DNA of 64,000 bases from the NCBI GenBank assembly GCA_031256445.1, contig JAIRQN010000106.1, forward strand, positions 31,897 through 95,896, given 5' to 3'. Below are positions 5,637 to 64,000 of this stretch, one piece after another (position 1 is the stretch's first letter; every line of letters starts with the position of its first letter). This DNA is from Treponema sp. GTDB lineage: Bacteria > Spirochaetota > Spirochaetia > Treponematales > Breznakiellaceae. Below the pieces are notes generated by a model that saw nothing but the letters and a program-made list of their open reading frames with translations, was not told the origin of the DNA and did not search any database. The position numbers were made by a program, and so were the translations under genes.

Positions 5637-5655
5637 CCCGGGAGTTTTTAAAAAA

Positions 5656-6168
5656 AACGATGAACCGTAAGCCGGGTTCTGTAATCTGACCGTTAAAAAT
5701 ACCGGCCAGACGCCGCCATCTGTCTGAAAGCGCCGTTTCCGGCGCTTTTTAGCAGTCTACCTGCGCTTAACCAACGGGTCGTTGCCGCGCTGACTTGACT
5801 TTGCTCCTGATGAGGCTTGCAATTTTCCAGCTTCGCTGGAATCTTTCCGGTATTGTTGCCAATACCGAGGTGGGCTCTTACCCCGCCTTTTCACCCTTAC
5901 CTGGCCAAAAATGCCAAAGAAGGCGCCAAAAATCTGGCGTACTTATGACATTTTAAGCGGTCAGGCGGTATTTTTTCTGTGGCGCTGTCTGTCCCCGGCG
6001 CCTAACTCCTGTAATTCAGAAAACAATTGTTTTTGATACATTACTCATCTACAACAGTCAGGCGCCAGGGCCCGGGAATTACCCGGCATCATACCCTGCG
6101 GAGCCCGGACTTTCCTCCCTGTTACAGGCAAAAAATGCCAAATAGAGCGGCAGCCTGGTTCATCGTTT
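5656..6168 (-). ncRNA. rnpB: RNase P RNA, bacterial class A
   Basis: Minus strand carries GAGGAAAGTCCGGGCTCC, ACAGAAAAAATACCGCC, AGGTAAGGGTGAAAAGGCGGGGTAAGAGCCCACC, AGGAGCAAAG and terminal ACAGAACCCGGCTTACGGTTCATCG. P1 pairing CGATGAACC...GGTTCATCG closes the ends, followed by a U-tract. Confidence 0.95.
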
Positions 6169-39150: not shown

Positions 39151-39214
39151 TGACTGCGCTCGTCCGGTCATGCCGAGTAAACTCGGTCACGACTCTCACT
39201 TCGCTTGTCAATCA
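39151..39214 (-). repeat. Dispersed palindromic repeat family B, copy A
   Basis: Minus strand TTGATTGACAAGCGAAGTGAGAGTCGTGACCGAGTTTACTCGGCATGACCGGACGAGCGCAGTCA, near-identical to the copy at 63845. Confidence 0.9.
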
Positions 39215-41979
39215 AAAAGAGAAAGAGTATTGTCCGCGCTTTTATCTTTTGTTTCCCTGTTTTTTAATTTTTTTTCGTTGCTTATCATGGAAAGTTTACT
39301 GTCAATTGATTGTTCATTATCATCCGTCACCTGAAGGAGTTTTTTCAACTGGCTCAGAACATTTAAGGCTTCAAGAGGCGTCATCTGCTGCGGCTCCAGC
39401 TCCTTTAACATGTTTTCAATTACGCTTTGGTTATCAAAATTATTTTCACTTTGGATTTCTTTATTGTTAACCGTATTTAAGTTAAGGTTAACAATATTTC
39501 CACCGCCGAATGTTTCGCTTAAATCCGCGTCACGTTCTTTTAGAAGACTCATAATTTGTCCGGCTCTGTCAAGAACATCCCCGGAAAGCCCTGCAAGACG
39601 CGCGGCATGGATACCGTACGATTCCGCGGCAGGGCCTTCCTTCAGTTTTCTTAAAAAGACAATATTCTCTCCCTGTTCCAGCACTTCCATGGAACGGTTC
39701 GCGAGCCGGGAATGTCCTAAAAGCGACAGTTCGTGAAAATGAGTCGCAAAAAGCGTCCTGCAGCCGATACGGTTTAGCAGTTCTTCGCTGACAGCCCAGG
39801 CTATAGAAAGTCCGTCATTGGTGCCTGTTCCCCTGCCTACTTCATCCATGATAACAAGACTCTTCTCTGTCGCGGTATTTAAAATAAAAGCGGTCTCGTT
39901 CATTTCAACAAGAAAGGTAGATTCTCCGCGCGCCAAATTATCTGAGGCTCCTACGCGGCAATAAATACGATCGCACAGTCCAATACGCGCTTCTCTTGCA
40001 GGAACAAAGCTGCCTGTCTGCGCCATAATCGCCATAAGAGCCGCGCTGCGCAGATAAGTGGATTTTCCGGCCATATTGGGACCTGTTATCATGGCGAAAG
40101 AAATTCCGTTTTCGGCGTTTAATAAAATATCATTTGGGATAAATTCGCCGCGGTTAAGATGCGCTTCCACAACAGGGTGCCGCCCTTCGTATATTTCCAG
40201 ATTGCCGCTTTCATCCAATACAGGGCGCGTCCAGCCTCTTACAGACGCAGCTTTCGCAAGCGACTGAGCGGTATCAAGTTCGCCGATTCGTTTTGCCGCG
40301 GCGCCCAAAGGCAGTAAAGCCTTTTTTACCAGTTCGCGAATTTCCAGAAAAAGTTTTTTTTCCAGCTCCACTACCCTTTCAGAAGCGCCGTTAATTTCAG
40401 ATTCAAGAGCGGCAAGACGCTCGGTTGAAAAACGCTCTCCTCCCACAATCCCCTGCCGTCTGATAAAATGTCCGGGAACTTTTGGAAGGTATGCTTTTGT
40501 CACCTCAAAAAAATAGCCGATAAGGCGGTTATAGCGTAATTTTAAATTTGTAATTCCTGTCGCCTGTTTTTCTTTTTCAAGATACTGTTCCAGTATCTGC
40601 CTGGAATTATCCCTGACAGAACGCAGGGAATCCAGCCCGGCGTTATACCCGTCTTTAATCAAATTGCCTTCGTTCAATAAAACGGAAGGCTCTTCGCATA
40701 TTCCCTTCTCAAGCAAATCCCGTACCCGCTCAAGCCCGCCAAAATCAATTGCGCCGCTCTCTTTTTCATCGCACTCAAATCTGTATTCTTTGCCTTCCGA
40801 TGCCAGTATAATGTTCATTAATAATTGATAACTGATGATTGCGTTTTTAACCGCCAGCATATCCCTTCCGTGCGCCTTATCCATCGCGATCCTTGAACAT
40901 AGACGCTCAAGGTCGGGAGTTCTGCCGAGCAGTTCACGCAGGTTTCCAAGGCGACTCTGATCGCGGTACAGGTTTTCCACCATGTCAAGACGGGCGTTTA
41001 TCCCGGCTAAATCGCGTAACGGGTGAAGAATGCGGCTTTTAAGCATCCTTCTTCCCATTGCGCAGCGGGTTTCATCCATTACTTCGAGAAGGGAAAAACG
41101 GACGCCGCCGTCCCTGAGATTTGCCATCAGTTCCAGATTACGCTGAGTTGATTCATCAATGCCGGCATATTCGCTGCCGCGGTATACTTTAATGGCTCTT
41201 ATGTGCGGAAGAAGGCTCCTGGATGTTGTATCAAGATAGTCGAGTAACGCTCCTGCGGAAACAATCTCAGGGCTGCCGTCATCAAGGCCGAAACAGTTAA
41301 GGTTTGTTACGCCAAATTGTTTTAGAAGCCTTTCTTTTGCCTGCATAAAATCAAAAAGCCAGTCGGCCCAGCGGTTAAGAACAAGTCCGCTTCTGTTATA
41401 AATGCCGCGCGCCGTGTTTTTATCCTCTTCAAGAAGCGATTCCTGAATGAGAAGTTCCCTGATTTGAAGACGCTCAAGCTCCTCGCGGAGCATCTGCCCC
41501 TCTCCGGCGGGGAAGCTGGTAGCGAAAAATTCGCCTGTAGAAAGATCTATATATGAAAAAGAAAGCGCGTTCCGGCGCGAGGAAGAGGGAACGCACGCGA
41601 GGCATCCCAGATAATTCGAGCTTCCCTTGTCCAGAAAATCTTCATCTACAGTTGTGCCGGGAGTGATTATTTCAACAACATCGCGCTCAATTACCTTGAC
41701 GCCTTTTTCCGGACCGGACATTTGTTCGCAGATGGCGATTTTTTTTCCAAGTTTTAAAAGGCGCGCTATATAGGATCTCGCCGCATGATAGGGAACGCCG
41801 CACATGGGAAGCCCGTTGCGGCTTGTTAATGTAAGGTTTAAAAGCGCGGAAACTTCTATCGCGTCCTGCGCGAACATCTCGTAAAAATCACCGAGACGAA
41901 AAAATAGTATATTTCCTTCCTGTTCTTTTTTTATGCGCCTGTATTGATCCAGCATTGGACTGGAGCGGGACACATCCAT
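39208..41979 (-). CDS. mutS: DNA mismatch repair protein MutS
   Basis: ITGPNMAGKSTYLRSAALMAIMAQTGSFVPA; MDEVGRGTGTNDGLSIAWAVSEEL; N-terminal MLDQYRRIKKEQEGNILFFRLGDFYEMF. Confidence 0.98.
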   Translation of the reverse strand: MDVSRSSPMLDQYRRIKKEQEGNILFFRLGDFYEMFAQDAIEVSALLNLTLTSRNGLPMCGVPYHAARSYIARLLKLGKKIAICEQMSGPEKGVKVIERDVVEIITPGTTVDEDFLDKGSSNYLGCLACVPSSSRRNALSFSYIDLSTGEFFATSFPAGEGQMLREELERLQIRELLIQESLLEEDKNTARGIYNRSGLVLNRWADWLFDFMQAKERLLKQFGVTNLNCFGLDDGSPEIVSAGALLDYLDTTSRSLLPHIRAIKVYRGSEYAGIDESTQRNLELMANLRDGGVRFSLLEVMDETRCAMGRRMLKSRILHPLRDLAGINARLDMVENLYRDQSRLGNLRELLGRTPDLERLCSRIAMDKAHGRDMLAVKNAIISYQLLMNIILASEGKEYRFECDEKESGAIDFGGLERVRDLLEKGICEEPSVLLNEGNLIKDGYNAGLDSLRSVRDNSRQILEQYLEKEKQATGITNLKLRYNRLIGYFFEVTKAYLPKVPGHFIRRQGIVGGERFSTERLAALESEINGASERVVELEKKLFLEIRELVKKALLPLGAAAKRIGELDTAQSLAKAASVRGWTRPVLDESGNLEIYEGRHPVVEAHLNRGEFIPNDILLNAENGISFAMITGPNMAGKSTYLRSAALMAIMAQTGSFVPAREARIGLCDRIYCRVGASDNLARGESTFLVEMNETAFILNTATEKSLVIMDEVGRGTGTNDGLSIAWAVSEELLNRIGCRTLFATHFHELSLLGHSRLANRSMEVLEQGENIVFLRKLKEGPAAESYGIHAARLAGLSGDVLDRAGQIMSLLKERDADLSETFGGGNIVNLNLNTVNNKEIQSENNFDNQSVIENMLKELEPQQMTPLEALNVLSQLKKLLQVTDDNEQSIDSKLSMISNEKKLKNRETKDKSADNTLSLFD

Positions 41980-52175: not shown

Positions 52176-52248
52176 TTGATTGACAGGCAAGTGAGAGTCG
52201 CGGCCTGATTGACCTCATGGGCGCTGTCACCTGTGCGGTTCATACCCC
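52176..52248 (+). repeat. Dispersed palindromic repeat family B, copy B (divergent)
   Basis: TTGATTGACAGGCAAGTGAGAGTCGCGGCC...GCGCTGTCACCTGTGCGGTTCATACCCC aligns to the copy at 63845 at both ends; the centre is divergent. Confidence 0.75.
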
Positions 52249-52261
52249 CAATAACACTAAT

Positions 52262-52301
52262 GGACTTGTGAGACAACTCAGGTTAGTTGTCTCACAAGTC
52301 C
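52262..52301. repeat. Perfect hairpin GGACTTGTGAGACAACT-CAGGTT-AGTTGTCTCACAAGTCC (family A)
   Basis: 17-bp perfect arms, 6-nt loop. Confidence 0.97.
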
Positions 52302-61613: not shown

Positions 61614-63848
61614 ATGGATGAACTTTTTACATCAAAAAAAGAGTCAGGATCGAGTCCTCTTGCCGACAGAATGCGTCCGCGTTTTCTGGAAGACATGGTC
61701 GGCCAGGATCATATTGTAGGGCAAGGAAGGCTCCTGCGCCGGGCAATCCAGGCGGACCGTCTTTCGTCAATTATCCTCTACGGGCCGCCTGGAACGGGAA
61801 AAACAAGCCTCGCGGCAGTAATCGCCAACACAACAAGAGCCTCATTTGAAAAACTCAACGCGGTTCTTTCCGGCGTCAAGGATATCCGCGAAGTAATTGA
61901 CCGCGCCGATGAGCGCTTCAGGTTATACAGTAAAAGAACAATCCTTTTTGTAGACGAAGTTCACCGCTGGAACAAGGCCCAGCAGGACGCCCTTCTTCCC
62001 TGGGTGGAAAACGGCACTGTTATCCTTGTCGGCGCGACAACTGAAAATCCTTTTTTTGAAGTAAACCGCGCTCTTGTAAGCCGCAGCCGTATTTTCCAGT
62101 TAAAACCGCTGACAGACGCCGATCTGGTTGAAGCGGCGCGGCGCACGTTCGCCGATAAGGAACGCGGATACGGAAACTGGAATGTTAAATTCGAAGAAGG
62201 CGCGCTGGAACATCTTGTTGAAGTTTCCGGAGGGGATGTCCGGTGCCTGCTTAACGCGATAGAACTGGCTGTGGAAACCAGCGTCACTCCGTGGCCTCCC
62301 TCCGCAGGCTGCGATCTGCTGATTTCAATGGAAGCCGCCGAAGAGAGCATCCAGCGCCGCGCGCTTCTTTATGACCGGGACGGCGATTACCATTTTGATA
62401 CCATCAGCGCGTTTATAAAAAGCGTCCGCGGCAGCGATCCTGACGCGGCTCTGTACTGGCTCGCGAAAATGATACGCGCGGGCGAAGACCCAAAGTTCAT
62501 TTTCAGGCGGATGATAATACTGGCAAGCGAAGATGTCGGTCTTGCCGACCCGATGGCGCTTTCCGTTGTTATCTCCTGCGCACAGGCTTTCGAGCGGATA
62601 GGTTTTCCGGAAGGAAACTTTCCTCTTTCCCACGCCTGCCTTTACCTTGCTACAGCCCCAAAATCCAACACTACGCTGGCTTTTTTTGACGCTCTTAAGG
62701 AAGTTGAACGGGAAGACGCCGAAGTTCCCAATCATTTAAGAGACGCAAGCCGTGACGGCGAAGGTTTTGGACATGGCGAAGGCTATGTTTATCCGCATGC
62801 TTACAGGGATCATTGGGCAGCTCAGCAGTACCTGCCCAGCGCTTTAAAAGGCAGGACATTTTATACGCCTTCAATAATCGGATATGAGGGGAAAATTCGG
62901 GAAGACGCGCTTCAAAAACGGGAATTACAGGCAGCAATTGTATTCGGCACTCCCGAAAAAGAGGAATTTTTAACATGGTCTGCGGCAGCAAAAGGAAGAG
63001 AAGGCTGGTATAAACGCATGGAATCTGGAAGAAGCGCGCTTTTATTGAATGACCGTAATGTCATTTTTGACGCAGCACAGCCGGCGCGCCACGACCGCGT
63101 ACTTGTCCCTTTAGCGAATGACGGGCTGTTGTTATGGGAAAGCATGCGCCGCTGTCCGGAAGGTTTAACCGCCTCTGTTGTCAGCGCTCCGGCCGCAAAA
63201 GACGCTCTTTTACGCTATGCCGCGGTACTGGACGCAAACGTCCTTAATGAAGCGGAAAAACCCCAGATTGCCGTCTCACAGGAAATACTTCCTTCTTCTG
63301 AACAATGCGATGAATGGTTTTCCTGCTCAAAATTCGACCATATACTGCTTCGCTGCTGGCGTCTTGCCGCCGAACCTGCATTTCTGGCATCCGCCGCAAA
63401 GCCGCTGCTTGCCAAAAACGGAAATTTTATCCTGTTCTTCTCTCCTCCATCCCTGGGAGAGCGGTTATCCCGGATTATAAAAAATGAGTGTACAAATGAA
63501 AATATCAGTAATAAGGAAATTTCTGCGCTTGAGCAAGCCGAAGAAGCATTTTTTCAGGATACCGGCTCGTTAAAATTGTGGGATTTAAGCAATATCAGCG
63601 CTGTTTTTGATGAGCAAGGATTTAAGCATGATTACCGGCTGCTCGAACAAAAAGAAGAACGATTAATTTCCGGGAAAGACCTATCCTCCTGGTTCAATAT
63701 TGAGCAATCCCGGTGGGGCGCTTTTATGGCGGATAATTTGAAAAAAGCTGAGTTAAAAATGATAGAAAACGCTTTACGGGGAAGAATAGCCAAAGGCCCT
63801 GTTTTTTGGCGCTGGAAATCCGTATGTTTGAAAGCTTCAATAGGTTGA
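61614..63848 (+). CDS. rarA: RarA/MgsA AAA+ ATPase with C-terminal extension of about 290 aa
   Basis: LADRMRPRFLEDMVGQDHIVGQGRLL; YGPPGTGKTSLAAVIA; FVDEVHRWNKAQQDALLPWVENGTVILVGATTENPFFEVNRALVSR; extends to 744 aa where canonical RarA is about 430-450 aa. Confidence 0.93.
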   Translation: MDELFTSKKESGSSPLADRMRPRFLEDMVGQDHIVGQGRLLRRAIQADRLSSIILYGPPGTGKTSLAAVIANTTRASFEKLNAVLSGVKDIREVIDRADERFRLYSKRTILFVDEVHRWNKAQQDALLPWVENGTVILVGATTENPFFEVNRALVSRSRIFQLKPLTDADLVEAARRTFADKERGYGNWNVKFEEGALEHLVEVSGGDVRCLLNAIELAVETSVTPWPPSAGCDLLISMEAAEESIQRRALLYDRDGDYHFDTISAFIKSVRGSDPDAALYWLAKMIRAGEDPKFIFRRMIILASEDVGLADPMALSVVISCAQAFERIGFPEGNFPLSHACLYLATAPKSNTTLAFFDALKEVEREDAEVPNHLRDASRDGEGFGHGEGYVYPHAYRDHWAAQQYLPSALKGRTFYTPSIIGYEGKIREDALQKRELQAAIVFGTPEKEEFLTWSAAAKGREGWYKRMESGRSALLLNDRNVIFDAAQPARHDRVLVPLANDGLLLWESMRRCPEGLTASVVSAPAAKDALLRYAAVLDANVLNEAEKPQIAVSQEILPSSEQCDEWFSCSKFDHILLRCWRLAAEPAFLASAAKPLLAKNGNFILFFSPPSLGERLSRIIKNECTNENISNKEISALEQAEEAFFQDTGSLKLWDLSNISAVFDEQGFKHDYRLLEQKEERLISGKDLSSWFNIEQSRWGAFMADNLKKAELKMIENALRGRIAKGPVFWRWKSVCLKASIG

Positions 63849-63932
63849 TTGACAAGCGAAGTGAGAGTCGTGCCCGAGTAAACTCGGGCACGACCGAACG
63901 AGCGCAGTCACCGAAGGGGTTCATACCCCGCG
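63845..63932 (+). repeat. Dispersed palindromic repeat family B, copy C
   Basis: TTGATTGACAAGCGAAGTGAGAGTCGTGCCCGAGTAAACTCGGGCACGACCGAACGAGCGCAGTCACCGAAGGGGTTCATACCCC; central stem GTCGTGCCCGAGT-AA-ACTCGGGCACGAC has 13-bp arms. Confidence 0.93.
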
Positions 63933-63992
63933 GCTTGCCGCGGAAAGCCAGACCACTTGTAAGTGGTCTGGCGGGTGCAGGGCTTGCCCTGC
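63916..63992. repeat. Series of four short perfect palindromes
   Basis: GGGGT-TCAT-ACCCC; CCGCGGC-TT-GCCGCGG; GCCAGACCACTT-GT-AAGTGGTCTGGC; GCAGGGC-TT-GCCCTGC. Confidence 0.93.
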
Positions 63993-64000
63993 GGTATGAT

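Follow-up and report, generated by a model that had tools for sequence, protein, structure and literature searches.

A dispersed palindromic element of treponeme genomes, very probably a PATE derived from an IS200/IS605-family transposon

The window analysed here is a stretch of 64,000 nucleotides from a Treponema sp. assembly (C5:31897-95896), and both the window and its contig stop inside a copy of a repeated element. This copy, A, abuts a RarA/MgsA-type ORF (61614-63848): its target site, TTGAT, lies at 63845..63849 (+), and the TGA at 63846-63848 is the stop codon of the ORF. The element begins directly afterwards, at TGAC, and occupies 63850..64000 (+), where the contig end truncates it about 9 nt (ACCATTCAT) short of its right end, as judged from complete copies elsewhere. 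It opens with a 5' module (63850..63913, +) composed of TGACAAGCGAAGTGAG, a long hairpin and GACCGAACGAGCGCAGTCA, which is not present in IS200-type relatives. The module is followed by a segment resembling an IS200 left end (GGGTTCATACCCCGCGGCTTGCCGCGG; 63917..63943, +), an exchangeable middle hairpin (CCAGACCACTTGTAAGTGGTCTGG; 63948..63971, +) and a hairpin resembling an IS200 right end (GCAGGGCTTGCCCTGCGGTATGAT; 63977..64000, +). An earlier note on this DNA had described a repeat that included TTGAT, ended at 63932 and had a 2-nt loop. These details need correcting, in that TTGAT is the target site, copy A continues past 64000, the end of contig C5, and the supposed loop marks the midpoint of a perfect palindrome whose predicted fold has a 4-nt loop.

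Two further copies lie in the window, and all three of the dispersed stretches first described are seen in the sequence. Copy C has its target site TTGAT at 39211..39215 (-), whose GAT forms the final codon of mutS (39208-41979, -). The element occupies 39151..39210 (-), its first triplet, TGA (39210-39208), being the mutS stop; the first 60 nt are kept and the right part is missing. The left flanks of A and C are near-identical, as had been claimed: the 22-nt GACAAGCGAAGTGAGAGTCGTG occurs exactly twice, in A from 63845 (+) and in C within 39215-39151 (-), and none of 100 shuffles matched when up to 3 mismatches were allowed. With a 72-position model of the 5' module, copy A was found at E 6e-22 and copy C at E 8e-17. 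The same model matched copy B, from 52176, at only E 0.06. Copy B has a TTGAT target site at 52176..52180 (+) and continues through an intergenic stretch at 52181..52248 (+); we read this copy as a decayed relic because GGTTCATACCCC follows in register downstream. When folded as single-stranded DNA and compared with shuffles, copy A was far more stable (z -6.0), copy C moderately so (z -2.4) and copy B not (z -0.6). A second repeat family, GGACTTGTGAGACAACTC..GTTGTCTCACAAGTCC, is present at 52262-52301 of the window and in the L008 right flank, and nearly all genomes of the genus searched contain similar matches. The window also carries a bacterial class A RNase P RNA (5653-6166, -) that spans 514 nt against a model of 367, and thus contains insertions.

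The element is not limited to these three copies. A DNA search of the 2.79-Mb assembly returned 12 long matches plus fragments, two of these being right-end halves at contig ends, which may pair with left halves at other contig ends. The 5' module model gave 10 matches in this genome at E up to 0.001. We count 10 good copies plus fragments across the genome, so the refuting outcome named in the earlier note, a genome with these three copies only, does not apply. Across related spirochaetes, the element was found in 28 of 200 family genomes, at one to at least 24 copies each, and its distribution is patchy, with most relatives in the genus lacking it by the 5' module model. Many contigs of this assembly terminate within the element, as would happen with any repeat that exceeds the assembler's word in length, and its copies fragment draft assemblies of these genomes. 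In a collection scan, named records with matches were mostly Treponema or Spirochaetaceae MAGs, and the isolate codes suggest that the hosts are apparently spirochaetes from termite guts.

No match to the element was found in the plasmids or phages searched, and the single match in the viral scan, inside an 874-aa ORF, was attributed to chance. Scan matches in Halobacteriales, Burkholderia, Nannocystis, Myxococcales and a Clostridia bin concerned the short pattern only and were excluded from the counts. The right flank TAAAAGAACTTT is common to a copy binned as Tannerella (L184) and a Spirochaetaceae copy with the same sample code (L168), so the Tannerella copy is likely mis-binned. An element of the same architecture, GTTAT followed by TGACGAGCGAAGTGAG..CCTCTTTAT and then T, lies upstream of a gene in a contig labelled Oscillospiraceae (L227:5133-5247); the family may reach beyond spirochaetes, or this contig may be mis-binned. 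We also observed a separate repeat of about 120 bp, beginning GGGCTGTCCG.., which this genome contains in at least 15 near-identical copies (including L007:1-119, L009:1-119 and L013:1526-1570). Two element copies are joined within their core to a copy of this repeat, and a third is followed by a shorter relative.

Aligning 26 near-complete copies showed the anatomy of the element. The full unit measures about 160 bp in this genome and about 80-200 bp elsewhere, and the length between ends (79-222 bp) is too short to encode a transposase. From the left, the target TTGAT or TTTAT is followed by TGAC(A/G)A(A/G)CG(A/G)AG(C/T)GAG, a long hairpin and GACCGA(A/G)CGAG, then by GAAGGGTTTAATACCCCGCGGCTTGCCGCGG, a variable hairpin and GCAGGGCTTGCCCTGCGGTAT, and the right end reads ATACCCTTCAT or ATACCCTTTAT. 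An extra hairpin module of about 65 nt thus precedes an IS200-like core, and this module is what had earlier been described as a flank plus stem. Predicted folds place palindromes near both ends, and for 9 of 32 predicted pairs at least one sequence has changed at both positions and still pairs. Internal hairpins vary by lineage, as with GTCAACTATTGTTGAC in G017. In short copies (79-85 bp) the core is missing, GGGTTT-AATACC...AATACC-CTTTAT being reduced to GGGTTTAATACCCTTTAT, and these sequences would fit a core deletion between AATACC or ATACC direct repeats.

The ends and target were defined across 92 insertions. The left 5-mer was TTTAT in 37, TTGAT in 18, ATTAT in 9, CTTAT in 7 and GTTAT in 6, with rarer forms in the others; its last two letters, AT, were partly imposed by the search patterns and its first three were not. 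The right end was TTTAT in 35 or TTCAT in 26, forms imposed by the finding pattern, and a T, which was not imposed, followed in 52 of these 61. Insertion lies 3' of TTGAT or TTTAT, and the element ends in TTCAT or TTTAT. In this genome a right-end TTCAT also runs directly into a second left end (TGACAAGCGAAGTAAG), as expected if a right end can itself be a target.

A short, non-coding, multi-copy element could be a classical MITE, derived from a DDE transposon and bearing terminal inverted repeats and a target duplication, and in G009 and G050 the flanks are often TTTAT on both sides, which resembles a duplication. We consider this origin extremely improbable. The left terminus, TGAC(A/G)A(A/G)CG, and the right, ..CCCTT(T/C)AT, are not inverted repeats of one another. 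Moreover, in this genome and in G007 the left flank differs from the right end, which is fixed, so that there is no target duplication.

Comparison with relatives revealed several empty sites. KhpA ends LEILD-stop without the element in 15 relatives of the genus; in this genome the element directly follows KhpA LEILD and its TGA supplies the stop. MutS ends SLFD-stop in two relatives, where TTTGAT is followed directly by TAG and by TAA (L157, L135). The mutS GAT codon is followed by the element both here and in G007 (L221, Pfam MutS), the two copies are of different subtypes, and the two species acquired these insertions, exactly at the stop codon of mutS, independently. The acyltransferase gene next to copy L010 has the ending LND-stop in this genome as in most relatives. 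Removing the element in silico produced an immediate stop in sense-strand ORFs of L080, L167, L187, L213 and L243, and at L011 joined GAT to TAA.

Stop-codon overlap and strong hairpins with compensatory changes could also mark a structured RNA or an mRNA 3'-end signal, either terminator or stabiliser, that is selected at gene ends and only secondarily mobile. The same genes in relatives do without the element, however, its hairpins lack a following T-run, and it occurs in both orientations relative to genes. Rfam 15 contained nothing matching the element, either in the window at the gathering threshold or, at E up to 1, in six loci with copies. This explanation is accordingly improbable in our judgement, and strongly so. 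Near an element copy in G050, a match to Flavo-1 RNA (L090:710-793) scored 41.6 bits, just below the gathering score of 42.

The absence of a matching transposase from the window extends to the whole assembly. No Y1 transposase (PF01797) was found in this genome, which is 97.7% complete, while 10 of 14 control genomes had a match; the resident Y1 tnpA that would mark an IS200/IS605 insertion sequence is thus lacking. Since none was found, mobilisation of the copies probably took place in trans, or else predates the loss of the Y1 transposase. One candidate parent, G010:C189, proved to be a decayed tnpA with the element inserted antisense near its 3' end, and at the matching codons some intact relatives (AATCAAGGG) read CCCTTGAT followed by T on the element's strand. 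The Y1 group recovered with this decayed gene is present in 35 of 200 family genomes, and complete relatives of the G010:C189 insertion sequence supplied its ends: on the left, TTTAT followed by TAGGCGAAGCCTATACGGTTTAATACCCCGCGGCTTGCCGCGG; on the right, GATACCGCAGGGCTTGCCCTGCGGTT.TTCAT followed by T.

These ends closely match those of the element. The left hairpin agrees at 27 of 27 nt (G009 copies) and the right hairpin at 19 of 19 nt, junctions 3' of TTTAT and TTCAT are common to both, and local alignment scores were above all 300 shuffles for most pairs tested. The IS200-type elements of the treponeme family (L288-L305) accordingly have the same hairpin cores and junctions at both ends, but carry tnpA and start with TAGGCGAAGCC, whereas the element starts with its TGAC module. 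Y1 elements of another TnpA group, such as L096, were rejected as a parent as their ends do not match.

Palindromes that are extragenic and dispersed, and that would form single-strand hairpins suited to Y1-type chemistry, might alternatively be REPs or REPINs spread by a RAYT (TnpA-REP) domesticated transposase (PMC3116915, PMC3733652), which are likewise non-autonomous and tied to Y1-type enzymes. The GTAG or CGTC tag is absent from the palindrome foot in our alignment, though, and the units measure 80-200 bp compared with 20-40 bp. The search of this genome revealed neither a RAYT nor any other Y1 gene, and the ends match IS200-type elements instead. We therefore think a REP origin very unlikely.

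Altogether, the element is very probably a PATE, a non-autonomous derivative of an IS200/IS605-family transposon. On each point that can be tested it has the defining features: no terminal inverted repeats, palindromes near the ends, likeness to IS605-type elements, no target duplication and no transposase. A mobile, spread, transposase-free unit, as the earlier note had proposed, is supported by the scattered copies, the empty orthologous sites and the defined target and ends; its wording "REP/MITE-like" holds for the mobility, and the features described above speak against both class names. The PATEs of Haloquadratum walsbyi similarly lack terminal inverted repeats, target duplication and a transposase, have near-terminal IS605-like palindromes, have undergone core deletions between direct repeats and contain other inserted small repeats (PMC3119063). 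The element shares the first four of these features, its short copies would fit the same route of core loss, and the GGGCTGTCCG repeat at its copies is reminiscent of the small repeats inserted there. It differs in being bacterial and spirochaetal, in its TT(T/G)AT target, in its extra 5' module and in its frequent overlap with stop codons. ISDra2, a member of the IS200/IS605 family, inserts 3' of TTGAT (PMC2806898), and the element resembles it and other such transposons in this insertion site and in its subterminal hairpins; the element differs in having neither tnpA nor tnpB. As outlined in PMC2775950, IS605 stem-loops in Borrelia plasmids are linked to lipoprotein genes. They too are dispersed in a spirochaete.

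In the proposed mechanism, the end hairpins, formed in single-stranded DNA, would be recognised by a Y1 (HUH) TnpA acting in trans, which would cut 3' of TTGAT or TTTAT in the left flank and 3' of TTCAT or TTTAT at the right end. The excised strand would then be joined 3' of another TT(T/G)AT, leaving the target unduplicated. Copies of 79-85 bp may have arisen when the core was lost between direct repeats (AATACC or ATACC). Against the PATE reading, this genome has no Y1 gene, the left terminus of the IS200-type elements does not resemble the 5' module, and no intact autonomous copy with the module was found. Furthermore, TnpA genes with matching ends do not co-occur with the element: of the 28 genomes with the element 3 carry them, and of the other 172 genomes 32 do. 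This TnpA group is therefore a candidate mobiliser of these copies and no more. The element family represents a large, well-delimited group of bacterial PATEs in treponemes for which the ends of a related autonomous element are identified, and a natural system for how IS200/IS605 derivatives persist without a resident transposase. Its 65-nt 5' module, exchangeable hairpins and stop-codon overlap are distinctive, and we found no paper on it in treponemes in the open-licence literature.

We quantified the stop-codon overlap using 53 insertions having both ends and enough flank, counting the stops of mechanically called ORFs of at least 100 codons. Insertions fell within ORFs in 13 cases, on a stop codon in 17 and elsewhere in 23, as compared with 1143, 32 and 246 control T(T/G)ATT sites in the same flanks. 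Insertions were thus depleted within ORFs (p 2e-17), and among non-genic positions 17 of 40 insertions hit a stop codon, against 32 of 278 control sites (odds ratio 5.7, p 7e-6). Part or all of this excess could reflect selection, in compact genomes, against other positions. A more speculative possibility, to which we give limited credence, is that the element has become adapted to insert seamlessly at stop codons, and would have spread because selection at gene ends does not see it. This idea stems from the TGA contained in TTGAT, the TAA in ATAAA (the reverse of TTTAT) and the TGA that forms the first triplet of the element. If it were true, a gene read into the element would end at once and keep its native length. 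The overlap, including the mutS insertions in two species, makes targeting versus selection testable.

A minor observation concerns khpA and rimM, which are neighbours in relatives. In this genome they lie on different contigs, each abutting an element copy (khpA at G000:C73:3537-3707 and rimM at G000:C52:29892-30398). The cause is either recombination between copies, which would have split the operon, or a mis-join of one contig at the repeat.
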